Shown here: positions 1,497 through 23,146 of the stretch, in pieces
Layout: every line of letters starts with the position of its first letter
Numbering within the stretch: position 1 is the first letter of the stretch
Source: a virus
Length of the DNA stretch: 28,983 nucleotides
Virus record (IMG/VR): IMGVR_UViG_3300020197_000112
Span: 1 to 28,983 of that record
Direction: 5' to 3' (one strand)
Notes under the pieces: generated by a model
What the model was told of the DNA's origin: nothing
The model's database searches: none
What the model saw: the letters and a program-made list of their open reading frames with translations, nothing else
Made by a program: the position numbers and the translations under genes

Positions 1497-1505
1497 ATTA
1501 TACCA
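1497..1505 (-). promoter_or_regulatory. extended -10 promoter before the last tail-tip gene
   Basis: The minus strand reads TGGTATAAT, overlapping the stop codon of the preceding gene. The expected start is near 1490, so the leader would begin at the AGGAGG ribosome binding site. It would drive the tail-tip gene and the zinc-ribbon and HTH genes beyond it. A perfect 12-base palindrome, GTATAATTATAC (1492-1503), covers it. Confidence 0.58.
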
Positions 1506-3609: not shown

Positions 3610-6600
3610 TACCTTACCTCACTTAAATATATAGTCATGTTAGGACCTTCAGCAGTTTTGCTGTATTCAATATGATATACAACATATCTGTCATTTGTAA
3701 TTTTTTGAATATTATCTTTTGTATATTTAACAGAAACAATGTCTCCTAATTGAATTGTTGAGTTAGCAAAAATTTTTAAACCTATAGACTTTCTTGGTTT
3801 AATAATTTTAGATAACAGCCACTTCATTAAATTGTTTGCCTGATCTTGTGTTTGAATGTATGGCGTTTGAATAGAAAAATCTTTTTTACCATATGTCATT
3901 CTACTTAATTTAATGTCTTCGTAATCTTTGTTTATTTTAAAAGGAGATGACACAACACTTGATCCCTCTAGTACGGGGTCAGATAAAGAACTATTTTTAG
4001 AGTAGAATTGATCTACGGTTAACTCTCCTCTAGATTCTTGAGTAAACGTTACTCCTTGAATTCTTAAATAATTTCCTGTTGTTTCGTCTAAACTTAATGC
4101 TGTGTCTGTGGCATTAAATATTATAAACTCAGCCCCGTAAGATCCTGCTCTAAATCCAGACACTGTGTAACCTTTTATTTTATTAAATGTTGGAGACATT
4201 TTTGCATAAAGTGCTGGATAGGCTTTGTCGTATCTTATATTAAAGGTGGCAGCCTCACGCATAATAGTGCCAAATTCTTCAAAATACATATTGTATTTAT
4301 TTGGTTCTGAACTACTGATTCCAGACAGGTATGTTTCTTGAACAATACCACTCATAGCATACTTTCTAAATGATTCGGTAGCATTAATCTCATTGTCATA
4401 AATGCTATTAACTGGTGTGTTTAAAGCAAAAACAGCATTTCGACTATAATTATTTGACAAGGCATATATGTTTTCAAACATGATTCGTGACGAACCTCGA
4501 ACAAATAAAGCCATATTGTTATATACTGGAAGTGGTTCTTGGTCTACTACTGTAGTTAAAAGCGATCCATTCATATATAAATGAAATATTCTAGCGTTAC
4601 CCAAGGCTTCATACTCAATCCCAATGTCATAAACAGTTGATTGTTGCTCAGATGCCATTCTATACTGACCTGTAAATTTTCCATCATCTACAATAATATT
4701 TCCCAAGCCTTCCCAAATTTTTACTGGAATAGCATTATTAGAATTACTATCTTTTTTTATTTTGTAAAATATAACATTGTGAACATTTTGTTTTTCAAGA
4801 GTAGATATATTAGAACTTCCAAGTGCGATTAATTCTAAATAATAGCCGTTATTTGTTTGTGGGTTTAACATTACAGCAAGACCTCCACTACCTCCAGAAA
4901 TAGTTATATCTTTATCTGGAGTTAAACCTGGGACAGTATAATATGTCGTACTGCCATTTGCGGTTTGTCCACGACTTGTATTGTTCTCTATTTTACCTAT
5001 AATTCTCATTCTAGTACCGAAATGTTTAAAATTATTATTAAGTGGTTTATACACATATGATATAAAGTCTCTTGGTTTTTCTGTTACTGGAATTGGTGGT
5101 CCCTGCATAACAAAAGCAGAAGACTGTATAGTTCCAGGTTTTGTTGCTGTAAAATTATTTACATCTGATTCAGCATTAAAGGTAGCAGACATAAAGTTTC
5201 TTATAATTCCATTTCTTGTTGTTTTTTTAGCAAGTTCATTATTAATTCCAGCAGCGCCTTCTTGGGTAGTTAACGCTTGAGCGTTGTTTTCAAACAAATG
5301 CTTAGACTGCATTGAACACCCTCTAATGTTTGAATCATTTTTCCAATACGAACTTAATCCTGCAAAATGCTCTACAATAGTGGTGCCAAACTGGCCTCTA
5401 CCGTGTTTAGCAACTAATCCATTTTTTAATTTTAACACTTGATTAACTTCTTCATAATTAGGCTCTGAATATATTCTAACAAGTCCAGTTGGATAAATTT
5501 TACCGTTAAATGGTAATTGTGAAAAATAATATTCGTATTCTTGTGGACTGTTAATCCAAACATTTCCTACTCCAGCAACATTAAATTGAACCGCATCATA
5601 TTTAATTATTTCGCCATTAGAATAAAAGTATCCGTTATATCTTGCAATCCAATAAACCCCTTCGCCAAGATCTATAACGTTATCTGTTATTTCTCTATTA
5701 ACGACTCGTGGTAATTGATTAGATAAATTAGAGTTAAGTGGTATAGCACTTAAAAGATAAGAAGACTGCATTCCCGTTTCATTATTAACAGATTTAGTAT
5801 TTTCTGTTCCAGAAACCTCCCACAAAAGCACTGGTTTATAAATCCAATTTCTATCCATGTCAATTAAACTTGCTTGCTTAATGGTTCCTACAGATCTTTG
5901 TATATATTTTTCAGCATAGTTAATTTTGCCATCATTAAAAACTTGATTTTCTTCTGAAGCAATTTCAAGAATATTTGGCATAATGTTTAAAGTTGAATCA
6001 GGATTATTTCCAGACAAATAAGCAGTTATAGGTCTTTGACTTTCTGTTGGCATTATATAGTCTTTGCTCATTATAACAAAATTATTGTATTCGTCAAAAA
6101 ACATTGCCGATTGAGATGCAATGGCCAACTTCTCTAAAACTTCTGCAACGCTAATATCTGGCTCTACATAAAAGTATGGAATAATTAATTCTACTTCATC
6201 GGCTACTCTTTTAAAACTATAATTTGCAAAGCCAACAGAATCTAAAAGATATGCTATTGCAGAACTAAGGGATACGTTTGTCATTAAAGTTTGTGTGGCT
6301 GTTAAATTTTCAAAGTAAAAAAACAAGTCTCGCAATTCCAATTCTATTGTTTGCTCCCCTTGATCAATCTTTGGAAAACCATCTGAGTATAAAGTTTTTA
6401 CTGGAACATAATAATCCCAACCTTCTACATTAAATATAATATCATAAAATTTAATTTGAATATGTCTATTAATATATTTTTTAATTATACTTGTATTATT
6501 GTTTTCATTAAATGCATCATCATAATCAAATATAGAAAGTGATCCAGTAGACGCTAAAAGTTGACCCACTGGCATTCCGCTAATACCTAAATCCGAAGCA

Positions 6601-7862: not shown

Positions 7863-8482
7863 TATGCCTCTTCCAAGCCAATAGAAATATCCCAAAGATC
7901 TAAGTTAGGGCCACGCCTAATAACCGTGTGAGAAAAATCTGAAAAGAAAACTTCAAGTAACTGATTGTATTGTGGTAAATGTGCATAAGCAGAATCATCT
8001 TTGCCAAATAGTGAATATTTGTCGTATGACAAATAACACCAAAAAGATCCTTTGTGCTTTTCATACCAGTCAAGCAATTCTACTCCTCCTGCACCGCCAT
8101 CGGTTGTGTAATTGTGTTTATTGCTTTTTCCTTCTGAATCAAAATCTGGATTTAAAGAAAAACCTCTTGAGGGTAAATTTGTATAACTAAAAGATATCGA
8201 CAACTTATCTGCAATATGATAAGAACGCATTCTGCCATTTATCATGCGCTCTCTTTTTTCAATTCGTATATTTCCAAAATCAATTGACGATCTGTTATCG
8301 TCTGACAATATTAAAAACTGATTAATGTTATCTGGATTTACTTCAGAACCTGGATTAGAATTAATTTCAAGACCGTTAGGAATATACAAACCATTTTCCA
8401 GTTTGCCAGAATTTTCAGACCAAAGCATGGCTTGAGGTCTACCATATTTTTTACGACCAGAGATATATGTGCTGGTTGCCAT
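7862..8482 (-). CDS. distal tail-type protein
   Basis: This 206-residue protein directly follows the tape measure and precedes the hub, the usual position of the distal tail protein that joins the tail tube to the tip. The sequence is beta-rich with few helices. A conserved-looking core is FWCYLSYDKYSLFG, and a C-terminal strand reads LWDISIGLEEA. Its ATG overlaps the tape measure stop (TAATG), and AAGGAGTG lies upstream. Assignment rests mainly on position and general composition, so it should be read as distal-tail-like. Confidence 0.68.
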   Translation of the reverse strand: MATSTYISGRKKYGRPQAMLWSENSGKLENGLYIPNGLEINSNPGSEVNPDNINQFLILSDDNRSSIDFGNIRIEKRERMINGRMRSYHIADKLSISFSYTNLPSRGFSLNPDFDSEGKSNKHNYTTDGGAGGVELLDWYEKHKGSFWCYLSYDKYSLFGKDDSAYAHLPQYNQLLEVFFSDFSHTVIRRGPNLDLWDISIGLEEA

Positions 8483-11400
8483 TATAGTCTAACACTCCTT
8501 AACTTTTGAGAGTTTACTCTCTGTATATTTGTCATAACTGCCTGAGCAATTTCATCTGGGTTTGCATCAGACTTAACATTAACACTAATACTATAATTAT
8601 ACACTGAGTCTCCAACTGACTCCCCGCCATTTATTGCCTTCATCGTATCAATGCCGTGAGTATTAACAGCATACTTGCTCATTACAAATTCTCCTGGAGT
8701 AAGCATTGCTGGAACTGTATCAGTACCTAGTGGCATTCCTCCTGCAGCAAAATATTTTGTTATTAATCCACCAGCACTCTTAAATTTAATGGATCCTGCA
8801 TGGATAGGGGTTGTAGAAACTGCTGTCTTGCTGAATTTTGCTGCATCTGCAATTTCTTTGGCTTTAAATGAAGCATAAGTTGAATAAAATTTTTGTTGTT
8901 GTTCTGCTTTTTTCAATTGTGATGCTATAGAGGCTGCTCCAATTGCCCCACTTTCTGCTGCTGCTAAAACACTAGGATTTACTTTTGCTGCAGCAAGTGC
9001 TGCTGCATTAAGATCTCCTGCTGCTTTTGCTGCTGCATATGACGCTGCTGCTTGTGCAGATGTAAAGCCAGTAGCACCTGTTGCACCAGTTGCACCCGTA
9101 GATCCTGTTGCACCATTACCGCCTGAAGATCCTCCTGTTTCATAGTTAACAGTTATAGTTACTGTTTTACTTTTAATTTCATCATACAAACTTTTAATCT
9201 TTGCCCAGGTTTGTGCAGCAGTCGAACTATCTGCATTAAATCCATCAAGAGCCTCTTTAATTTGTTTTCTTAATTTTTCATCTATTAATGTTTGTTGAGC
9301 AAGAATTTCTTCCCATTGCTCTCTTGTCTGTCCTGCAACCTCTCTGTTACGATCATTAGCAGCAATAATATTCCCAAGAACTGTGAGTTGATAATCTAAC
9401 GCAAGATTTTTTGTTGTTTCAAGATTGATAGCAGTTTGCAATGGCAAAATTTTATTTTGTTCAATCTCATATATTTTTTCTTCATGTGCTCTTATTGCAA
9501 GAAGCAAGCCTTCTCTTTTTTCTTCTATAGCATAAATAGCATCCTTGGCTTCTAGAATACTTTTTTCTAATGCCAATTTTTGAGGATCATTTTCAAGAGC
9601 ATATATCTGCTGAGATATTTGCCATCTTCTTTCTTCAATCTGATCTTTTGTTAGTCCATTTGCATTGGTCAATCCCTTAATTGCATTGTCTCTTGCTTGT
9701 GTCAACGCATCGCCTTGTCCTGTTGCAAAATCTTGAGCATTTGATGCTCTCATGGCCTGTGCAGCACGGGCAGCAGCAGAGATATCACCCTGAGTTAAAG
9801 CATCCGCTAAATCTAATTGTTGCTCTTGTTGACGAATAATAGATTCATTAACCTTTTGAACTTCTTCTAATGCTTCGGCTTGTTCATCATATCTGTCGCT
9901 AATCTTGCCTGCCTGATAATTCATTACTTCTAAGTCATGAGAAAGAACATTGGATTCCTCTTGAAGCGTTTTAATTGGACGGTCATATTTCATCTCTATT
10001 TCTCGTTCCCAATCGCTAATCTGTTCTTTGAGATCTTCGAGAACGTACTTTAATTTACCAGTTACTTTTTTACCATCTACTGTTAGATTTAACTCTTTGA
10101 CGTCCATATTTTCAACACTACGCTCAATCTTTTCAATTTCATCACTAATCATAGATATCTGATGTTCGTAAATAGCAAGTTCAGCATTCATTGCTGCAAG
10201 TGCTTCATCACTTTCAGTCTTACTTCTACTTAATTGCTTAAATGTTTTACCATTAAATTGATTAACTCCAGTGCTGTCGGCCATACCAGTAACATTAGAT
10301 TTAAGGGTGTATTCATCCATTGTCTTGTATGCATCAAAAACCTTCATTGCTGCATCATATGCTTTTTGGAATTTTTCAAGTGGGGTCAAAAGATTTTTCT
10401 CAAGATCTTTAGCAGATTCGGAAGTAGAAATAAGATTAAACAAATCTTTCATTAATTTCTGAGTATCCCCAGTACCACTCTTAATCTGATCCATTATTGC
10501 AATCATTGAAATTAAATCTTCGGGATCTTGAATTGCATCATAGATAGAAGCCATGGAAAGGCTTACTTCTTTACCCGTTGCATCTATTGTTTTAAGTCCT
10601 GATAAGAAATTTATTAAATCTGGTGTTTTCTTTAAAGCATCAATTCTTGTTTCGTTGGTTTTGGTTTTGTCAACTAGGCCTTTTATTTGCTCTCTTAAGA
10701 TACGTTGCTGAGTTAAAACATTATTAGTCTTTAATTCTTGCGCTGTTATTTTTCCTGTTGCTATGGCAGTAACATATGTCTGATTCTCCATAGCCTTTTC
10801 TATTTCAAGATTAGACAAACCAGCAGCCCTTAATGTTGCGTATGCCTTATTTTGTTGATTGATATTCTTAATAACCTTCTGTTGTTCTACTTGAAATTCT
10901 CCAACTACCGCCTTATCCATACCCTGGCGCATAGCATTACCTTTATCAGTTAATACGAAATCTCCCTTCTTGTATTTCTGAGTTCTTGTGACCATCTTAC
11001 CTTTTTCATAGTCAAACTCTTTATACTTCTTCTTACCCTTTTTAGTTGCAGTAAATCCAAATTCTTTCTGTGCTTCTGGATCTAGATTAGTAATGTAATT
11101 AATGAAATCATCACTATATCCCTTCTTCATTAGTTGTTGTTCTATTCCAACAAATTTATTTGCTACTGATTTACTTCCTGCAGCAGCGATTGCTTTTTGT
11201 AATTCTTTAAAACCACCCGCAGCATTAATTGCAGCATTTCTAACATTCTTGAGACGTTTCATAATATCTTCAAATGGATCTGCTTTTTTGCCACCCTTAT
11301 CTTGTCCTTCATATTTGTTTGCGTTATTACTAGCAATATCTTGTTTGACCTTTTGCATAGTATCTTCGCCAGCCATGTCCCTTCTAACTGATTCTCGACC

Positions 11401-14400
11401 AGCCTCAGTTGCGTAATAATCTGCTACTGTTTTCGCTCCGCCTGCTGCCTTAACTCTTCTTGCAATTTCAGCATCTACACTCTTATCATCAATTTGCTTA
11501 ACAAGAGTTATATATTCTTGAACAACTGTTTTCCTTACCTCTTCTGGTAAATTTTCAAACTCTGCCCAACGAGATAGAATTCCATCTAAGTTTACTCCAC
11601 CTAACTCTTTAACCTCAGTTAAGGCCTTAAGTGTAAACGGCCCCTTATGGTCTTCTACTTCTTGTAAAGAGTCTGCCAGGTCTGTTAATCTTTGTTGTGC
11701 GTCATCTCCTTCAAAAAATGCCTCTATATCAATTTCTTTATTGTCCATTTTCTGCATAAGCATTAATGTTGCCATTATTTTTTCTGCTTGTTCTGGATCC
11801 TTTTGGGCCATCCTTGTAAGTATTTTAACATTTTTCTTACCAATGTCTTTATTTTTAAATCCTCCGAAGAAGTTAATAACTTCCATAAACTTTCCTGGAT
11901 CACTAAACTTAGTTGATACAGTAAGAACCTTGTCTAAGCCTTTTTCATCATCTCCAAACATTTGCATTAGTGAAACTGCTGCCATTGGACTCATTTGACC
12001 AGAGGCAACTATTGTGTCTATCTTTACTTCTAACTCTTTACTATCTAAGTCTGCTGAAGACTTTAAGAATGCATCTGCCATCGGATCATTAGCCCATTTT
12101 GTTTTAACTTGAGACTTTAATGAATCAAAGAATGCATCCTCTACGGCCCCTCTCTTGGAAGCAACCTTAAATGCTTCTACCTGATCCTTTAAAATATCGC
12201 CATTTACTTTTCTTAAGTCAGCAGTTTGTGTTACTTGATCATCTTTCATTGTTCGAATTTGGGCTTCTAGTTTTAATTGTTTTTCTTTATTTGTAGTAGA
12301 TGCTTTTTCTTTTTCTAACTTAGCAATTTCTTTTTCATATTGAATAGTTAAAGAGTCAATTTGTGATTGATTTAATTCAAGATTTTGCGTACCAATCGCT
12401 GCTGAGCCAGAAGCCATTGATTCTCCTGATGTTTGCTTAAACATTTCTCCAAAAGAGTAGTTTAAAAATCCTGGAGCCTTCTGGAAAGCACCCATAACCG
12501 CAGTGGGAATTCCTATTCCTGGTATAACGACTTTTGAAAGTTGTGAAGCAACATTGTCAAAAGAATTGTTGTAACCAGCAAGATTTGTGGCTAAGTTTTT
12601 AGATACCTGCTTTCCAGTGTCTCTTTGCTGGTTTACTAAATTAACTCTAGTATTAAGTGGGTCTTTTAATAAATCTTGTCCTTCTGGTCCAATTAACTCT
12701 AACAATTGTCCACTTATTTGTGCACCTAGTGTTGTATTCTTAAGATTTAATCCTATAGCCTCTGCAACGCTATGAGCCTGTTCTGCAGAAAGAATTCCGT
12801 CAGAAACATATGCTCCAAGTTGAGTAGCCATTTGACTTGCAGATATTTCAGTTCCGAACCTAACCAGACTTTCTTTAAATCCTCCAAGAACGTCTTTGCC
12901 TACTTCACTTTCTAAGAATGTAGTTCCAAATCTTTGTTTTCCTCTTTCAAAACCAGTTGTAAATCTGTCAGAGGCTTGCTGATTTCTTCTTCTAGACATT
13001 ATCTCAGAAGCACCAACCTTGTCTGTTAGTTCTCCAATCTTTTTCATCTTTTCTGTAGTTGCTGATGTAGCATCTACTAACTTAGACATTGCTTCAGCAT
13101 GCTTCTTGCCAGCCTTATCCGCTAAATAGAACGATCCTGCTAATGCAGTTGCAGCAACACCTGCTGCTATATATGGATTTGCAAGCATAGGAGCCATACC
13201 AGCAACTGCTGAAGCACCCATAAGCGCCATACCAGCCCCAGTGTTTCCAGTCATCATCATACCCATACCAGCAGTACCCAAGGCCATTGACATACCACCA
13301 GAGTATCTGCCAACTTTTTCTTGACGCATTTGTATTTTTTCTCGTCTTGCATCTTTTCTAGCCTGCTTTGCGGCTGCTTCTTTTTCTGCTTTGTTCCTTG
13401 CTTCATTAATTTTTAATGCTTCGTCATGAGCAGCAGCGATTCTGAGTGATTGTTTAGCACGATATGCTTCATCTTTTGCTCTTCTTTCTGCTCTTTGTGT
13501 TTCATTATCGGCCATTCTTGCTTGTTTTAGTTTATTGGCTGCAATTTTTTCATCATTCTTTTTTTGTCTTTTTAATGCATCTTTAATTTGCTCTTCAGTA
13601 AGATTGCGTCCACTTTGTCGTAATCTTTTGGCTCTTTGTTCGTTTAAACGTTGACCTGCTTCTGGTGCAGATTCATGACCAGGAATTAAAACACCTCTTG
13701 AAGTGCGTAGTGGTGCAATCTTAGACAATGCAGTAATCTGATTTGGTTTTGCAACAATCTCAGGCTTTTTTACTTTTACAGATCTGGTATCTTTAGTTGG
13801 TTTTCTTTTTTTATCAATAGGAATAACATTCGCAGGCAAAGGCTGTGTATTTTGTTTTGTTAGTTTTTTATATGTTTGATCTAAAACATTATAAAGTACT
13901 TCACCAGGTTTAACTCCAACTAGTGACGCTCTTGCATTACGTGAAATTTTTACGTTTTCAGATTGTGTTGAATCAGAACTTAAATCAAATATGGGCCTTG
14001 CTGCTCGCTGTTGCTTTTTATATAAACCAGCCTTAAATTGTTGATCAATTAAATAATCGACAGCCTTTGCCTGTGAAACTGACCCTAGATTTGGAAAACC
14101 TTTTGGCCGTCCGCCCTGTTGCTCTAAAAATGCTTCTGCCCTTATTCTAGCCTGTGCTGCCAACTGAACCATCTTGGCCTGATCTGCCGATATCGGATGT
14201 TGACCAGACTTTAAGAAAGCACTTGCCTGTTGCAATACTTTTGCTGTCTCACGATCATATAACCTATACTGATTATTTGCATTCCACGACAACAATTGTC
14301 CTAGCGTTGTGTTTTTTGGATTTGCAACGGCGCCTGGATTAACAAAACTGTTAATTAAATTTCTATCAAATGTAGCAAAACCACTTAACCATTTTTCCTT

Positions 14401-17400
14401 ACCTATGCCAGGCGCTCCAGCAGTTTTAGCAATATGAGATAGTTCGGTTCTTAAAAATTTGTTAATTGCCGTTTCAGTGTAACCTAACTCTTTCAATTTT
14501 GTTCTAAGGTTTGCTGTAATTTCAGAGGCTTTGTTTGCATTTGTAAATTTTGCTTCTTCGGCCAACAATGCCTTTTTCAATGGCCCATCCTTTATATATT
14601 GTTTCCAATTTCCACTTTGAGATTTAACCGAAAAGTCTTCACGAAGTTTTGAAATACCCTTAGACTGAGAAGTATAGTTACCGTGAATTGGACTTGGCAT
14701 TAAGCCCAGCCTATATAGTGTTTGTGACCTTAAGTAATCGAGCGACTTTCCTGTTTTACCTTTTTCAAAAGCGTCTTTAAGAAAAGCACCTTTGTCTGGA
14801 TCAATTAATAATTTTTCTTTAAATAATTTTCTTAAAGTTTCACTTTGAGAAATATCAATTTTGCCATCTTGTAAAATTCCACTTCTTTGCAATTTCTCGA
14901 TTGCTTTTTGATATTGACTTGGATTTACTGTTTTTAAAGTAGTAAGTGCAGCGCCTGCATCATTGTTTATTTGTTTTATTAATGAAGAAATTTGAGTTTG
15001 GTTTTCTCGTTTTGCTACTGCTATTTCCCATGGACTTAGGTTTCCCTTACTATATTGAGGAACTTGTTGACCTGCCCTTATATGTGCAGCATGAACTTTT
15101 GTCCAGTCTGTTTTCAAGCCATTTTCTAATCTTGTAATTACATTTGCATATGCTTGCTTTTCTAATGCATCAAGATTTTGAAAATTTTTACCACTAGATA
15201 TTTCTTTTTTATACAAAGGAAGTACTCTTCTAATTTCATCTTTTATTGCTTGATCATATTGTTGTGGAGACATTTTGGATGCAAGCGCTGATGTTTGTTG
15301 TGCAAAAAACTTTTTAGATCCGCCCTTAAACGCTAAGGTATTGGCAAGAGCAGTTTGTTCCATTGATGGCATAGTTAGTGAGATTTCTCTAAAGCCAGAA
15401 CCTTTAGGAAATACATATGCATTGCTTGGGTCTGGAGCACTCCTTCCAGAAACATTGCTCATTTGTAAATCTCTGTCAGCACGAATTGAAGAAGCAACTA
15501 ATTGCTTAACCATATCTTTTTGAGTAAATTTACCAGTCATACCTTCTGGACCAAACTTTTTATCATATTTTGAAACAAGTGCTAAATACGATCTTTTACC
15601 TTCTGGATCAGTAGGATCTAAAATTTTTACAAGTTTAGGCTTTGGTGCACTAATTCCATGAAGTCTAGTTAAGTCATTTGACCTAATGTCTCCCATAGCG
15701 GTTGACGGACTCATGGTTGGTTTTACAACTACTAATTTTCCATCTTTTTGTTTATATACCCCGCCTACGCCCTTTACTGGGAAACTATAGCCAGTAAATG
15801 GTTTGACTAATTCTCCCATGTCTTGTACTTTCATCTTAGCATATTGACCAACGTTTGCATCTCTAGATATCTTTTCTGCTACCTGTCTTGCTTGAGTTGT
15901 CTCACTAAATTTTTTAGGCATTCCGATATCTACTGCGCCTGACTGTTTTACTGGGTGCGAACTACCCCAAGGCAGCAATCCTTTACTATATCCAGGAACT
16001 TTATCTGCAAACATTGCATGTATGAGTCCACGATACTTTTCAGAAGTCTCTGCAGGTATAATTGCTTCGCCTGGAGAAACCATTGCTGGTACAACATCTC
16101 CAGCACCCTTTGGACCTGGAACGCTAACAACTCCCTCTTCATATTTTTTAACTGGTGGAACTTGAGGAAGTTTGGATACAGCACCTCTTGCTCCACTTAA
16201 TCCTCCAGTAAACAATGTTGGATTTTGTAAAGCCATAGCCCTCATCTGAGTAGCCATTTGTTGATATGCTGATGCTAATTGTAAAGCAGCAACTTTTTCA
16301 ATATTAAAAACTTCTGTCAATCTTGTATGTGTATTATGAAGTGCTTGTCCTGCTGCTTGTTGTTCTATTTGTTCTTGAGTCACGTAATTAAAACCAGCAC
16401 CCAGAATTGTTGTTTGTCCATTAAGTTTAGCAATTCCGCCACGTATTACTGAAAATAATTTAATTAAATTGGCCAAACCATTCATTAATAAACCAAATGT
16501 CATCAGAACAATTGGTCCCAAACCTGCAACAATACCAATAATTATGGCTATAACTTTTTTTGTATGATCTCCAAGTGAATTAAATTTTTCAAATAGTCCA
16601 CCAAAAAACTTTACAATAGGAGTGATTGCTTCAAGAAATGCTTTTCCTAATGGCATAATATCTTGCTTAAAGTTTTCTACAGCAGCCTGGAATTTAACAC
16701 CGACAGACTCTTCTATCTTCTTCATTTCTCGCTCAGACAGAACTGCTAATTCTTCTACAGATGCGCCAGCAAGATCAAATGCCCTGGCAGCCTGCGTTCC
16801 ATCTTTTGAAACATTTTGAAATAATGTTGATAAACGAGCAAACTGGAACTTACCAAATAGTTGCTCAATTGCCCTTGCACGATTTAAAGGATCTAATGTG
16901 TCTAGCGCTCTAGAAAATCCTACAACAGTTCCTTTAAGATCTCCTTGATTTGCCTCAACAATTCCTTTAATGTTAATGCCCATTTTACCAAGCATCTCGC
17001 TTGCTTTTTCTGTTGGGTTAATAAGAGATGCAAGACCAGACTTTAATGCGTTAGCGCCCTCTGATGCATTAATGCCACCTTCTTTCATGGCAGTAAGGAA
17101 GAATGCTAAATCTTCTACACTACCTCCAAGTTGTTTAACGATTGGTGCTGCTTTAGGAATAGCAATTGTTAAATCTTCAATGGATAAAACAGTTTGGTTT
17201 TCTACTGCGTTTAAAAAATTAATCTTTTCTGCTAACTGTTCACTAGACAAGCCAAATGCATTTTGTAAAGAAATAGTTGTTTCAAGTGCTTGTTGTTGTT
17301 CTACTTGACCAAGAACTGCAAGTTTTGTTGCTGTTTCTACTTGTCTTGTTAGATCTTCCCCTTGGAAACCTGCTGCTGCTGCAGTTGCAGCCATGTCCAT

Positions 17401-18207
17401 TGTATCTACTACGGCTACACCAAATTTTGTATATTCTTCTGCAAGTTTTCTAACATTTTGCACTGCCTCGTCTATTTGTGCATCATTAGTAAAAGCATCT
17501 CCATAAACACGTCTAAATTTAACTGTAGCCTTTTCTAAATCTCTAAAGGCTTTAGCAGCATATCCCCCAAGCAATGCCAAAGGCATAGTTAAACCAACCA
17601 TCAACTGACGACCAGCCCATTGAGTGTTTTTACCAAAATTTAATAATTGTGTAGATCCTTGCCTTAGTAATTGATTTAAAAATTGTTGTCTTTGTGCTGC
17701 ATATTGTATTCTAGTACCAAGTTCTGTAAATCTGCCATTAGCCATCATCAATGTTCTTGGCATAATACGCATTGCTTCCATAAATCCGCCCTGCGCTTTA
17801 GCCATTTGGATATACTGTGCTTGTAATGCCTTTACTCTATCTCTACGAGCACGATTAATAATTTCTCGTTCTCGTGCAAATGCTCTACCTAAAACCTTTG
17901 TGTTGGCTGTAGCAGCAGCCATACTGTATCTGTAGTATTCTCTAAGTGATAATTTATTTTTTTCTAGTGCGCTTGTAAACGCCATAGTGCTTGATGCAAC
18001 TTTTGCTTGGCTTACAGCAAATTTTCCTGTTGCACCTATAGACTGGAATAATTGAGCATTTAAACCTTTTTGTGCATTTGCAGCAGCCAGGTTGCCCTCA
18101 GCAAGAGTCTGATGAAATTTACTGAGGCCCGCCTGTAATCTGCGTAATTGTGCTAAAGCGTCGGCAGTATTAAAGTTGACATTAATATTAGAATTTACAT
18201 CTGCCAA
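8482..18207 (-). CDS. tail tape measure protein, very long (3241 residues)
   Basis: It sets tail length and is usually ejected with the DNA. At the usual 0.15 nm per residue, the tail would be near 490 nm if the whole chain counts. The N-terminus is helical; residues about 160-580 hold the tape-measure core and a hydrophobic segment (KKVIAIIIGIVAGLGPIVLM). Other parts in order: a VPAMVSPGEAII motif (about 700), a kinase-like region (810-920), an all-helical region, a charged coil (about 1540-1640), a Gly/Met/Ala-rich hydrophobic stretch (1635-1700), long coiled coils (2660-3020), six Gly-X-Thr triplets (about 3030-3050) and a second VPAMLTPGEFVM near the C-terminus. The start is a TTG preceded by GAGGTG; no in-frame ATG occurs in the first 70 codons. 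I see no lytic or peptidase motif. Confidence 0.95.
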   Translation of the reverse strand: MADVNSNINVNFNTADALAQLRRLQAGLSKFHQTLAEGNLAAANAQKGLNAQLFQSIGATGKFAVSQAKVASSTMAFTSALEKNKLSLREYYRYSMAAATANTKVLGRAFAREREIINRARRDRVKALQAQYIQMAKAQGGFMEAMRIMPRTLMMANGRFTELGTRIQYAAQRQQFLNQLLRQGSTQLLNFGKNTQWAGRQLMVGLTMPLALLGGYAAKAFRDLEKATVKFRRVYGDAFTNDAQIDEAVQNVRKLAEEYTKFGVAVVDTMDMAATAAAAGFQGEDLTRQVETATKLAVLGQVEQQQALETTISLQNAFGLSSEQLAEKINFLNAVENQTVLSIEDLTIAIPKAAPIVKQLGGSVEDLAFFLTAMKEGGINASEGANALKSGLASLINPTEKASEMLGKMGINIKGIVEANQGDLKGTVVGFSRALDTLDPLNRARAIEQLFGKFQFARLSTLFQNVSKDGTQAARAFDLAGASVEELAVLSEREMKKIEESVGVKFQAAVENFKQDIMPLGKAFLEAITPIVKFFGGLFEKFNSLGDHTKKVIAIIIGIVAGLGPIVLMTFGLLMNGLANLIKLFSVIRGGIAKLNGQTTILGAGFNYVTQEQIEQQAAGQALHNTHTRLTEVFNIEKVAALQLASAYQQMATQMRAMALQNPTLFTGGLSGARGAVSKLPQVPPVKKYEEGVVSVPGPKGAGDVVPAMVSPGEAIIPAETSEKYRGLIHAMFADKVPGYSKGLLPWGSSHPVKQSGAVDIGMPKKFSETTQARQVAEKISRDANVGQYAKMKVQDMGELVKPFTGYSFPVKGVGGVYKQKDGKLVVVKPTMSPSTAMGDIRSNDLTRLHGISAPKPKLVKILDPTDPEGKRSYLALVSKYDKKFGPEGMTGKFTQKDMVKQLVASSIRADRDLQMSNVSGRSAPDPSNAYVFPKGSGFREISLTMPSMEQTALANTLAFKGGSKKFFAQQTSALASKMSPQQYDQAIKDEIRRVLPLYKKEISSGKNFQNLDALEKQAYANVITRLENGLKTDWTKVHAAHIRAGQQVPQYSKGNLSPWEIAVAKRENQTQISSLIKQINNDAGAALTTLKTVNPSQYQKAIEKLQRSGILQDGKIDISQSETLRKLFKEKLLIDPDKGAFLKDAFEKGKTGKSLDYLRSQTLYRLGLMPSPIHGNYTSQSKGISKLREDFSVKSQSGNWKQYIKDGPLKKALLAEEAKFTNANKASEITANLRTKLKELGYTETAINKFLRTELSHIAKTAGAPGIGKEKWLSGFATFDRNLINSFVNPGAVANPKNTTLGQLLSWNANNQYRLYDRETAKVLQQASAFLKSGQHPISADQAKMVQLAAQARIRAEAFLEQQGGRPKGFPNLGSVSQAKAVDYLIDQQFKAGLYKKQQRAARPIFDLSSDSTQSENVKISRNARASLVGVKPGEVLYNVLDQTYKKLTKQNTQPLPANVIPIDKKRKPTKDTRSVKVKKPEIVAKPNQITALSKIAPLRTSRGVLIPGHESAPEAGQRLNEQRAKRLRQSGRNLTEEQIKDALKRQKKNDEKIAANKLKQARMADNETQRAERRAKDEAYRAKQSLRIAAAHDEALKINEARNKAEKEAAAKQARKDARREKIQMRQEKVGRYSGGMSMALGTAGMGMMMTGNTGAGMALMGASAVAGMAPMLANPYIAAGVAATALAGSFYLADKAGKKHAEAMSKLVDATSATTEKMKKIGELTDKVGASEIMSRRRNQQASDRFTTGFERGKQRFGTTFLESEVGKDVLGGFKESLVRFGTEISASQMATQLGAYVSDGILSAEQAHSVAEAIGLNLKNTTLGAQISGQLLELIGPEGQDLLKDPLNTRVNLVNQQRDTGKQVSKNLATNLAGYNNSFDNVASQLSKVVIPGIGIPTAVMGAFQKAPGFLNYSFGEMFKQTSGESMASGSAAIGTQNLELNQSQIDSLTIQYEKEIAKLEKEKASTTNKEKQLKLEAQIRTMKDDQVTQTADLRKVNGDILKDQVEAFKVASKRGAVEDAFFDSLKSQVKTKWANDPMADAFLKSSADLDSKELEVKIDTIVASGQMSPMAAVSLMQMFGDDEKGLDKVLTVSTKFSDPGKFMEVINFFGGFKNKDIGKKNVKILTRMAQKDPEQAEKIMATLMLMQKMDNKEIDIEAFFEGDDAQQRLTDLADSLQEVEDHKGPFTLKALTEVKELGGVNLDGILSRWAEFENLPEEVRKTVVQEYITLVKQIDDKSVDAEIARRVKAAGGAKTVADYYATEAGRESVRRDMAGEDTMQKVKQDIASNNANKYEGQDKGGKKADPFEDIMKRLKNVRNAAINAAGGFKELQKAIAAAGSKSVANKFVGIEQQLMKKGYSDDFINYITNLDPEAQKEFGFTATKKGKKKYKEFDYEKGKMVTRTQKYKKGDFVLTDKGNAMRQGMDKAVVGEFQVEQQKVIKNINQQNKAYATLRAAGLSNLEIEKAMENQTYVTAIATGKITAQELKTNNVLTQQRILREQIKGLVDKTKTNETRIDALKKTPDLINFLSGLKTIDATGKEVSLSMASIYDAIQDPEDLISMIAIMDQIKSGTGDTQKLMKDLFNLISTSESAKDLEKNLLTPLEKFQKAYDAAMKVFDAYKTMDEYTLKSNVTGMADSTGVNQFNGKTFKQLSRSKTESDEALAAMNAELAIYEHQISMISDEIEKIERSVENMDVKELNLTVDGKKVTGKLKYVLEDLKEQISDWEREIEMKYDRPIKTLQEESNVLSHDLEVMNYQAGKISDRYDEQAEALEEVQKVNESIIRQQEQQLDLADALTQGDISAAARAAQAMRASNAQDFATGQGDALTQARDNAIKGLTNANGLTKDQIEERRWQISQQIYALENDPQKLALEKSILEAKDAIYAIEEKREGLLLAIRAHEEKIYEIEQNKILPLQTAINLETTKNLALDYQLTVLGNIIAANDRNREVAGQTREQWEEILAQQTLIDEKLRKQIKEALDGFNADSSTAAQTWAKIKSLYDEIKSKTVTITVNYETGGSSGGNGATGSTGATGATGATGFTSAQAAASYAAAKAAGDLNAAALAAAKVNPSVLAAAESGAIGAASIASQLKKAEQQQKFYSTYASFKAKEIADAAKFSKTAVSTTPIHAGSIKFKSAGGLITKYFAAGGMPLGTDTVPAMLTPGEFVMSKYAVNTHGIDTMKAINGGESVGDSVYNYSISVNVKSDANPDEIAQAVMTNIQRVNSQKLRSVRL

Positions 18208-18231: not shown

Positions 18232-18558
18232 TTATTTTGTCAAACCAGCAACAACTGATGCTTCGGCATTCTGGAATCCAGATGCTGCATCAATTATTTG
18301 ATAAACTGTAGGAAGATCTAATAGTTCTTCCAGTTGATCTCTTTCGTCTGCCAATTCTGGCTTATATTGTTTCATTGCAATCTGGACACAATCCATCAAA
18401 ATATCCATGGACTTATCGTTGTCGTCTGAAACCGCAGCCAATTCTGCGAACTTTACCATAAAAGGTCTTAGAAGAGACAACTTAAGCGCTCTAACTGGGA
18501 CCTCTGTGTTGTCGACTAACGTAATTGTTTTCTTATTATCTTTAGGCTTTTCGGCCAT
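18232..18558 (-). CDS. tail assembly chaperone, short paralogue (G-like)
   Basis: This 108-residue protein aligns along its whole length with the first 95 residues of the upstream 228-residue gene. Shared landmarks are the motif QIAMKQY (upstream VIAMRQY) and LPTVYQIIDAASG (upstream MPTVYQILDYAAG). Being directly before the tape measure and lacking the second domain, it corresponds to the short chaperone that other phages make by normal termination. It has AAGGAGGAA before its ATG and its own extended -10 promoter. The two chaperones therefore appear to be made from separate genes. Its function is to bind the tape measure and recruit major tail protein during assembly. Confidence 0.85.
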   Translation of the reverse strand: MAEKPKDNKKTITLVDNTEVPVRALKLSLLRPFMVKFAELAAVSDDNDKSMDILMDCVQIAMKQYKPELADERDQLEELLDLPTVYQIIDAASGFQNAEASVVAGLTK

Positions 18559-18582
18559 TGTTCCTCCTTAAGGTATGAATAA

Positions 18583-18591
18583 ATTATACCA
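18583..18591 (-). promoter_or_regulatory. extended -10 promoter of the short chaperone
   Basis: The minus strand reads TGGTATAAT. The expected start near 18576 gives an 18-base leader that carries AAGGAGGAA. It lies in the 43-base gap after the long chaperone and would allow the short chaperone and tape measure to be transcribed separately. Confidence 0.62.
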
Positions 18592-18601
18592 TAGAGGCAT
18601 T

Positions 18602-19288
18602 TTATTTTTCAGTTAGATCCTCATAATCTAAGCCCAAACCAATACCAAACCCTGCTTGCTGTGCATTTACTCCCTGTAGGGCTAATATGTCATTTGAATT
18701 AGTTGCCTTACCCTTGCTAAATACCCTGGCTTTCATTTCGTCCCAGGCGTTGCCCTTCTTGGTTTGTTTATCTAAATCTACACCTTGCATAGCAGCAAGA
18801 AATTTTTTATGAGAATAATCTAGGTCTCTTTTTATCTTAAGGGTAGCAACTATTTCGGGCATTGACATAGATGACTCTAATTCTTCGTAATCTTTCCAAA
18901 TACCGAGCAAAAACACCTCTGACTCTAGTTCTGCCAAATCTAATTCATCCCAGGTTGATCCGCTTTCGGTTGCCTGTTTTTTTACTGTATCCTCGGACTT
19001 TTCATTAATTTTAATTCCTGCAGCATAATCTAATATTTGATAAACGGTTGGCATGTCTATATTATCCTCTAATTCTTTTTGTGTTTTGATTTGCGGATAA
19101 TACTGTCTCATTGCGATTACTGCACATTTTGCTAAAGCGTCTATAGCCTGATCATCATTTTTGGCAGATTTAACATTTTCAAATTCTACTAAAAATAATT
19201 TTAAAAATTTTATCTTTAACGGAGTTATATATAATTCTGTTCCGTCTATTAATTCTACAACACTGCTTTTATATATTTCTGTAGGCAT
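18602..19288 (-). CDS. tail assembly chaperone, long form (G-T-like in one frame)
   Basis: This 228-residue protein has an N-terminal chaperone domain (residues 1-92) and a C-terminal domain with FLLGIWKDYEELE, MPEIVATLKIKRD and KKFLAAMQGVDLD. That second domain is typical of the T part that other phages attach by programmed frameshift. Here both lie in one open frame. At codons 102-104, exactly between the domains, is the heptamer A AAA AAA; a -1 shift there would add ten residues and stop, giving about 114 residues. No Shine-Dalgarno precedes the ATG. Instead an extended -10 is placed so that transcription would start on the A of the start codon. It is preceded by the major tail protein's hairpin. 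Confidence 0.88.
   Translation of the reverse strand: MPTEIYKSSVVELIDGTELYITPLKIKFLKLFLVEFENVKSAKNDDQAIDALAKCAVIAMRQYYPQIKTQKELEDNIDMPTVYQILDYAAGIKINEKSEDTVKKQATESGSTWDELDLAELESEVFLLGIWKDYEELESSMSMPEIVATLKIKRDLDYSHKKFLAAMQGVDLDKQTKKGNAWDEMKARVFSKGKATNSNDILALQGVNAQQAGFGIGLGLDYEDLTEK
18977..18983 (-). promoter_or_regulatory. candidate -1 frameshift heptamer
   Basis: The minus strand reads A AAA AAA in register with the frame (GTA AAA AAA CAG), the form needed for -1 slippage. It sits at codons 102-104, between the two chaperone domains. After slippage the new frame reads ACA GGC AAC and stops at a TGA after ten codons. This is the dnaX-like arrangement, in which the shift shortens the product. 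Confidence 0.45.
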
Positions 19289-19294
19289 ATAACT

Positions 19295-19303
19295 ATTATA
19301 TCA
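19295..19303 (-). promoter_or_regulatory. extended -10 promoter, leaderless start of the long chaperone
   Basis: The minus strand reads TGATATAAT, a TGN plus perfect -10 hexamer. The last T is at 19295, so the expected start of transcription (7 bases on) falls on 19288, the A of the ATG. There is no Shine-Dalgarno. The site lies directly downstream of the hairpin at 19310-19340. No convincing -35 was found. Confidence 0.6.
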
Positions 19304-19309
19304 AACAGA

Positions 19310-19340
19310 AAGGCCCAGACTTTCAAGGGTCTTGGGCCTT
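19310..19340 (-). terminator. hairpin terminator after the major tail protein
   Basis: On the minus strand the arms AAGGCCC and GGGCCTT pair, extended by AGAC with GTCT across a bulged A, with an 8-base loop. TTTCTGTTT follows. It lies 22 bases beyond the major tail protein stop. The U-run is broken, so efficiency is uncertain. Confidence 0.7.
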
Positions 19341-19361: not shown

Positions 19362-19970
19362 TTATGCTACCGTACGATCAACGATCTTACCATAAGAGCC
19401 GTTATCGTTTGGAAGCAGACGGAATGAAACTTCAAACATTGTAGCCTCATCTCGTTTTGCAGATACGGTTACGCTCTCAATTGAAAGTGCACGATATGCA
19501 ACATAGACTCGCTCTTTGTTTGAACTTTGGTCACAATCACCAGTTCCTGGACCTACTGCGACAATTCCTCTCTCAATCGGACATTCACCAAGAGTTCCTG
19601 CCTTGAGATTGAGTGTTGGGTTTCCTGCTACTGTTGAAAGATCTGAATCAGATCCTGCTGTAGCAACAAGAAGATTTTCCAATGTTGATTCAGCAAATGC
19701 GGTATTTAGGTTAACCTGCATACCTTGCTTGAATAACTTTGCAACGTCAAGAACTTGATCTACTGCGACCTCACCAAAATCTGGCTGGAATTGAATTTCC
19801 AAACCATTCATGGTAAAGCCGATGTTACGAAAATCGTCGTCGCCATCCAGCGTTGTTCCGTACTTAGTACCACTTACGTATGCTGGTAGAGCGGCATCGG
19901 TTAACGTATCGTCGTATACCCATACCTGCGCTGCACCTACGATAATATTACTGCTATTACCTAGAGCCAT
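19362..19970 (-). CDS. major tail protein (tail tube)
   Basis: This 202-residue protein is beta-rich, begins MALGNSSNIIVGAAQVWVYD, and has the repeat-free strand pattern of siphovirus tube proteins. Landmarks are FTMNGLEIQFQPDFGEVAVDQV, the segment ERVYVAYRALSIESV and the closing strand FEVSFRLLPND. It lies between the tail terminator and the chaperones, which is its usual place. AGAGGTGA precedes the ATG at good spacing, and hairpins stand on both sides of the gene. This suggests it forms its own strongly expressed unit, as expected for a protein needed in hundreds of copies. Confidence 0.88.
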   Translation of the reverse strand: MALGNSSNIIVGAAQVWVYDDTLTDAALPAYVSGTKYGTTLDGDDDFRNIGFTMNGLEIQFQPDFGEVAVDQVLDVAKLFKQGMQVNLNTAFAESTLENLLVATAGSDSDLSTVAGNPTLNLKAGTLGECPIERGIVAVGPGTGDCDQSSNKERVYVAYRALSIESVTVSAKRDEATMFEVSFRLLPNDNGSYGKIVDRTVA

Positions 19971-22644: not shown

Positions 22645-23118
22645 TTATCTACCAAACTCTTTAGCAACTTCTTCTGGAGTGGCAATTCTAATATAAGGTT
22701 TAGTTGCCCATTGATCTGCAGCCTCTTTTTTAACAATATTGTATCCACGATAGACTTTGCCTAATCCTGGAACTGAAATATTTTTTGTTGAAAATACTGC
22801 TATTTTTTCAACAACAGGCTTTGCAGTTTCTGGCTTGTTGTCAGACTTAGGAGCCGACGTTACGCCAATTGCTCCGTCTGCAACAGGACCCAATCTTTGA
22901 CCTTCGTCAGAAGATTTTGCTAAATCAGTTGAAGAGATAGCGGTCACTTCTGGTTCTGGAGCAGAAACTGTTGCCTGAATATTATTATTTGAAGCAACTT
23001 CTTCTACTTTTGTCTGTGGTTGGCCTGCTTTATATTTTTCCCATTCACTAACTATTCCATCTTTGTTGGTGTCAACAATTTTGTTTTCTAGCGATTGTTC
23101 TAAATTATTTTCTTCCAT
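22645..23118 (-). CDS. EF-hand-bearing small head protein
   Basis: This 157-residue protein has a textbook EF-hand loop at residues 16-27: D16, N18, D20, G21, V23 and E27 occupy the expected calcium positions. Residues about 35-110 are low-complexity and rich in Ser, Pro, Glu and Ala, likely disordered. A small C-terminal domain (VPGLGKVYRGYNIV, then YIRIATPEEVAKEF) is compact. It follows the major capsid protein and its terminator, with its own promoter and AAGGAGGT. Calcium-stabilised head decoration or a head-tail link is plausible. A single EF-hand loop can also occur in dockerin-like modules. Confidence 0.72.
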   Translation of the reverse strand: MEENNLEQSLENKIVDTNKDGIVSEWEKYKAGQPQTKVEEVASNNNIQATVSAPEPEVTAISSTDLAKSSDEGQRLGPVADGAIGVTSAPKSDNKPETAKPVVEKIAVFSTKNISVPGLGKVYRGYNIVKKEAADQWATKPYIRIATPEEVAKEFGR

Positions 23119-23137: not shown

Positions 23138-23146
23138 ATTATAACA
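23138..23146 (-). promoter_or_regulatory. extended -10 promoter of the EF-hand head gene
   Basis: The minus strand reads TGTTATAAT, a TGN element plus perfect -10. It gives a leader of about 13 bases that includes the AAGGAGGT ribosome binding site. It lies just downstream of the major capsid protein hairpin, so it restarts transcription for the connector genes. Confidence 0.65.

Follow-up and report, generated by a model that had tools for sequence, protein, structure and literature searches.

In bacteriophage lambda the tail assembly chaperones gpG and gpGT are made at a ratio of about 30:1 by a -1 frameshift, and both bind the tape measure protein, with recruitment of the tail tube protein by the T domain (PMC5009743). 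Both the short form and its ratio to the long form are thought to be essential, as conservation of the G/GT frameshift is widespread among tailed phages and as permanent fusion of the two chaperones of the lactococcal phage TP901-1 results in non-infectious particles (PMC4493119). Other arrangements have been described. T4-like phages have one short and one fused long chaperone gene and no frameshift, as far as the account of Vladimirov, Gautam & Davidson (2022) cited in PMC10885494 goes, and Microbacterium phages of some EA subclusters have separately expressed chaperone open reading frames (ORFs) (PMC7302621). Here we describe a chaperone locus in the 28,983-base IMG/VR virus record IMGVR_UViG_3300020197_000112 (the window, i.e., the whole stretch of DNA analyzed), where the long form is encoded in a single frame and followed by a separate gene for its N-terminal domain. 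We consider it likely that the two products are the tail assembly chaperones of a long-tailed actinophage and correspond to lambda gpG and gpGT, but are expressed from two genes instead of one frameshifted gene.

The original prediction held that the long form is one uninterrupted frame and that a paralogue of only its first domain follows, and both claims are borne out (Table 1). Alignment of the short protein with the N-terminal ~100 aa of the long protein shows 38% identity (E 2.6e-19), i.e., the N domains are homologous, and profile-profile comparison of the two families (hhalign) gives a probability of 99.8 (E 6e-29). Both proteins match PHROG 10504, the long protein over residues 1-106 at 1e-19 and the short protein at 5.8e-13, while PHROG 10474, corresponding to the C domain, is matched by the long protein only (residues 130-220, 7e-15). 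The extents of these two PHROGs are those of the two ORFs that are kept apart in Streptomyces phages, and in tblastn the long protein indeed matches split N and C ORFs annotated "tail assembly chaperone" in such phages. Altogether it matches 132 phage records, all from Streptomyces or Rhodococcus phages, with E-values down to 1e-32. As expected for a siphophage chaperone pair, both genes sit between the major tail protein and tape measure genes. This is the same place as in lambda and in the Stanwilliamsviridae and the Rhodococcus phages Trina and Francesca, and the N and C domains are homologous to those of the Streptomyces and Rhodococcus phage chaperones; however, lambda and these phages use overlapping -1 frames and a single N copy, whereas here N and C share one frame and N is duplicated.

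A survey of related phages, proposed as a check of the original prediction, demonstrated that the gene pair is kept. Among the loci fetched from IMG/VR, 284 carry the fused form, and an N-only gene lies downstream of the long gene in 279 of them; the remaining five are interrupted by the end of the contig shortly after the long gene or by a chimeric junction. The latter, locus L148, was considered as a fused locus without paralogue and rejected, as the contig is chimeric (4675-5100) and its short gene starts normally before breaking into unrelated sequence. Removal of identical pairs left 171 distinct long/short pairs, and several of the counts below were made on 170 loci; all fused loci form one clade and the counts do not represent independent events. 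Ten large fused records each had exactly two matches to the short family, i.e., two N copies. The two N domains have diverged, with a mean identity of 38% between long and short within a genome, and between genomes the mean pairwise identity is 47% for the long N domain vs. 61% for the short protein.

Relatives with the usual frameshift are found among Streptomyces Stanwilliamsviridae (Samisti12, TunaTartare, BillNye), the Rhodococcus phages Trina and Francesca, and several freshwater contigs. These split relatives carry homologous N and C domains in two overlapping ORFs at the same position between the major tail and tape measure genes, which are frequently annotated as tail assembly chaperones and are given as a joined coding sequence in some records (TunaTartare, Francesca). 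Each of 23 split loci examined has its C ORF in the -1 frame, and in nearly all of these the overlap contains a slippery heptamer (GGGAAAC, CCCAAAC, CCCAAAT, CCCAAAA, or GGGAAAA). Samisti12 (L163) is without a canonical heptamer and has GAC CCG GAA where its relatives have CCCAAAY, and its shift site may therefore be non-canonical. Across the full length of each of 14 split records the short family was matched only once, i.e., there was no paralogue, although most IMG/VR records are fragments, for which the absence of a second copy covers only the sequenced bases (the Streptomyces records are complete), and a fifteenth, Francesca, is too diverged to match the short family. Homologues with the usual frameshift, which had been named as evidence that would speak against a duplicated chaperone, thus do exist, but as outgroups without the paralogue, and they polarize the change rather than refute it.

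Phylogenies of the two domains point to the direction of this change. In the tree of C domains all fused sequences belong to a single clade (support 87/85). This clade is nested in a group that includes the freshwater split loci L271, L287, L293, and L328 (95/85), and the group lies among other split loci with the Rhodococcus phages outside. In the tree of N domains the short proteins are likewise united in one clade (99/90), which is joined by six split N proteins (99/93), and the long N domains form a clade (100/99) on a long stem (0.56 vs. 0.15). In agreement with this, the split N proteins of the four freshwater loci are 50-59% identical to the short protein vs. 38-40% to the long N domain. 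On the nesting in the C tree, the grouping in the N tree and these identities, frameshifting is the ancestral and the gene pair the derived state. The sample contains a single origin of the fused form, and of the two genes it is the short one that has better preserved the ancestral N product.

The start signals of the long gene differ from those of the short gene. The long gene is preceded by a terminator and by an extended -10 element without a Shine-Dalgarno sequence, both of which were missed in the original prediction. The terminator lies between the major tail protein gene and the long chaperone promoter, separating the major tail protein transcript from it, and a terminator-like hairpin was present upstream of the long gene in at least 96 of 170 loci by a strict test. 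The extended -10 (TGNTATAAT, TATACT, TAGAAT, and similar) is located 5-9 nt, mostly 6 nt, before the start codon in 169/170 loci, compared to 1/664 among the remaining ORFs of these loci with a length of 120 aa or more, for which any of the first three possible starts was allowed, and a Shine-Dalgarno sequence was found before the long gene in none of the 171 pairs. As the extended -10 stands directly before the ATG and no Shine-Dalgarno sequence is present, the mRNA of the long gene is predicted to be leaderless. In actinobacteria a TA signal ~10 bp upstream of the start most probably denotes a leaderless gene, and such genes make up more than one fifth of the total (PMC3160421). The long gene resembles these TA-led genes (PMC3160421, PMC3898074), which have a TA-rich -10 about 6-10 nt before the start and no Shine-Dalgarno sequence, in that TANNNT ends about 6 nt before its start; it differs in that the signal here marks one gene of a virion block and is kept in about 170 phages beside a Shine-Dalgarno-led paralogue. 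The pattern TGNTATAMT-N6-ATG was also observed 5-12 times per related genome (contigs of ~100-123 kb) vs. 0-1 times for the reversed pattern. This suggests that there are many leaderless phage genes elsewhere in these genomes; among the tail genes, however, it is the long chaperone gene that carries the signal. A literature search of partial coverage gave no report of leaderless tail chaperones.

The short gene, in turn, has its own promoter and ribosome binding site, as originally proposed, and both are conserved. TATAAT or TATACT is located upstream, mostly 24-28 nt from the ATG, in 168/170 loci (TATAAT in 166/170), and a Shine-Dalgarno sequence is present in 167/171, the other four being of the AGGAAGGG or AGGAAAGGG type. 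Conservation of both signals across relatives is far beyond chance. Compared with the -10 of the long gene, that of the short gene is closer to consensus in 115 loci and equally close in 52, and in no locus is it worse; no terminator-like hairpin was found in the 170 loci between the long and short genes or after the short gene. Transcripts from both promoters would then cover the short gene, whereas the long gene would depend on its own weaker promoter alone, and the short form should therefore exceed the long form. These conserved and differing start signals lend support to the suggestion that ratio control may have moved to transcription and initiation of translation. In split relatives where the starts could be placed, a -10 and usually a purine-rich Shine-Dalgarno sequence are found upstream of N, which is more like the set-up of the short gene, indicating that the leaderless start and the fusion go together. 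Two further extended -10 elements were observed just upstream of Shine-Dalgarno-led genes of the window (Table 1), which points to several internal promoters in the virion block.

Probably the ancestor had a single gene in which N and C were joined by a -1 frameshift, and this gene, or its N part, was duplicated. One copy would have been fused in frame and come under a terminator-insulated extended -10 promoter making a leaderless mRNA, to give the long form. With the long form in one frame the phage needs another source of the short form, and this is provided by the paralogue, i.e., the other copy, which would have kept N only together with a stronger -10 of its own and a strong Shine-Dalgarno sequence. 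The short form would be in excess because it is served by two promoters and a strong Shine-Dalgarno sequence, while the long form has one weaker leaderless promoter that is insulated from the tail tube transcript. By analogy with lambda both proteins would bind the tape measure and tail tube proteins.

The original prediction left open whether the duplicated chaperone is used in place of frameshifting or in addition to it. The fused gene could still yield a short form by a dnaX-like -1 slip at A AAA AAA, after which the -1 frame would meet a stop within about a dozen codons, and the paralogue would then be an extra gene with another role. The window does contain GTA AAA AAA CAG at the N/C junction, an A7 run missed in the original prediction, and some relatives have A AAA AAG. 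The run is not conserved, however. Any X XXY YYZ heptamer is found at the junction in only 28 of 170 fused genes, and these are of six kinds; most other fused junctions have, e.g., AAA GAT or AAG CAG, and no slippery site is conserved among the 170, whereas nearly all split relatives keep one. The usual, if not universal, chaperone arrangement in which the long form is made by -1 frameshifting at a heptamer is thus present in the split relatives and absent from the fused genes, which also lack the conserved site followed by a -1 stop that is typical of dnaX. The reverse frameshift was therefore rejected and is very improbable, and as no slippery site is conserved in the fused clade "in place of" fits better than "in addition to". 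A different possibility is that the promoter-like signals are incidental and that the tail genes form one operon read from an upstream promoter, with the ratio set by translation only, the long gene having no Shine-Dalgarno sequence and the short gene a strong one. The gaps are indeed short, 43 nt between the long and short genes and 24 nt between the short and tape measure genes. The position of the extended -10 is nevertheless locked in nearly all loci and almost never matched in control ORFs, a terminator separates the tail tube gene from the long gene in many relatives, and a gene with neither a Shine-Dalgarno sequence nor a leaderless start would be hard to translate, and a single operon is accordingly considered unlikely.

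It could also be argued that the proteins are no longer a gpG/gpGT pair, in which case the short protein would be the full working chaperone and the long protein, its N domain having diverged, would have become a factor of its own in tail assembly or as a connector. Both the low identity of the long N domain to the short protein of the same genome and its faster evolution, seen in the lower identity between genomes and the long stem, are compatible with this. On the other hand the C domain shows strong conservation and is a homologue of the C domain that the split relatives encode by frameshifting, the WxxLDL region is kept at the N-C join, and the two genes always occur together, which leaves a separate factor with little probability. 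That the short gene is not a chaperone at all, a possibility raised with the original prediction, does not agree with the similarity of its product to the gpG-type N protein of the nearest frameshifting relatives, which exceeds that of the long N domain. Some observations do weigh against a gpG/gpGT-like pair arisen as proposed above. Structure prediction provided models of modest confidence (predicted local distance difference test, pLDDT, 73 and 67) with no significant match in a fold search, where the HK97 chaperone 2ob9 came only at rank 6 (E 2.7, TM about 0.4); a sequence search against solved structures found nothing, and a Pfam search of the chaperone proteins gave no significant match. 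The N tree places the long N domains outside the short and split proteins, although a clade of short and long is not rejected (AU test, p 0.165), so that the short and long N domains may have parted either shortly before or shortly after the nearest frameshifting relatives branched off. Finally, leaderless genes can be well translated in Actinobacteria, and weak expression of the long gene is therefore not certain.

Table 1. Features of the chaperone locus and its surroundings in the window.
Feature	Position (strand)	Sequence or properties	Basis or remark
Long tail assembly chaperone (TAC-NC / gpGT-like)	18602-19288 (-)	228 aa; N and C domains in one frame	PHROG and tblastn
Short N-domain-only paralogue (TAC-N / gpG-like)	18232-18558 (-)	108 aa	PHROG 10504; hhalign to long family
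Extended -10 of long gene	19295-19303 (-)	TGATATAAT	Ends 6 nt before long gene ATG; predicts leaderless mRNA
Intrinsic terminator hairpin	19310-19340 (-)	AAGGCCCAAGACCC TTGAAA GTCTGGGCCTT and T-rich tail	Fold -16.4 kcal/mol
A7 run, slippery-like	18974-18985 (-)	GTA AAA AAA CAG	N/C junction of fused frame; judged non-functional
Extended -10 of short gene	18583-18591 (-)	TGGTATAAT	Near-consensus, TGNTATAAT type
Shine-Dalgarno sequence of short gene	18563-18569 (-)	AAGGAGG	Strong
Major tail protein	19362-19970 (-)		Upstream context; PHROG 2175, 7.8e-33
Tape measure protein	8482-18207 (-)	3241 aa	Downstream context; syntenic with Streptomyces phage tape measure gene
Further extended -10	23138-23146 (-)	TGTTATAAT	Upstream of gene 22645-23118
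Further extended -10	1497-1505 (-)	TGGTATAAT	Upstream of gene 1038-1481

The minus strand of the window carries the virion block, in which the genes are arranged as portal, protease-like gene, major capsid protein, head-tail genes, major tail protein, long chaperone, short chaperone, and tape measure protein, and the major tail protein gene is syntenic with a Streptomyces phage gene for a "protein with Ig domain / major tail protein". The tape measure protein is very long and, at ~1.5 Å of tail per residue as in lambda, corresponds to a tail of nearly 490 nm. Median tape measure length was 2993 aa in 11 phages of the fused clade vs. 2210 aa in 14 split relatives; tape measure length as a driver of the change was considered and rejected, as the fused phages are one clade and hence one event, which proves nothing. 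The phages probably infect Actinomycetota, since a WhiB (PF02467) gene is present, one each, in 10/10 large related contigs (L009, L019, L025, L080, L081, L115, L129, L132, L150, and L152) and since cultured relatives infect Streptomyces and Rhodococcus. A scan of genome contigs for a host or prophage found no relative.

As an idea, separate short and fused-long chaperone genes are already known from the T4-like phages, to the extent that these are described in PMC10885494, and the present pair resembles theirs in having one short and one fused long gene with no need for a frameshift. T4-like phages, on the same account, are contractile-tailed and infect other hosts, whereas here frameshifting relatives are known, the fused form is one nested clade, and the start signals are conserved and contrasting. 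No T4-like record was among the phage matches of the long protein, and no profile comparison with the T4-like pair was made. The Microbacterium EA phages have two separate ORFs, and a fused long gene with an N-only paralogue is not described there (PMC7302621). What is new is that the arrangement is found in a large family of actinophages whose frameshifting relatives polarize the change, that the two N domains have diverged, and that leaderless and Shine-Dalgarno starts stand in a contrast that is conserved.

One kind of protein-ratio control thus seems to have been replaced by another, and the locus illustrates a route by which frameshifting can be given up, i.e., by duplication, fusion of one copy, and provision of each copy with its own start signals. 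In a frameshift system the N domains of both forms are necessarily identical. It is tempting to speculate, though only tentatively, that escape from frameshifting let the N domains diverge and specialize, e.g., for different stretches of the tape measure protein, and let the timing and amount of the long form come under separate leaderless control. With close frameshifting relatives at hand these phages offer a natural experiment on how much the ratio matters, on whether the N domains must be identical, and on how leaderless and Shine-Dalgarno initiation side by side set protein amounts.
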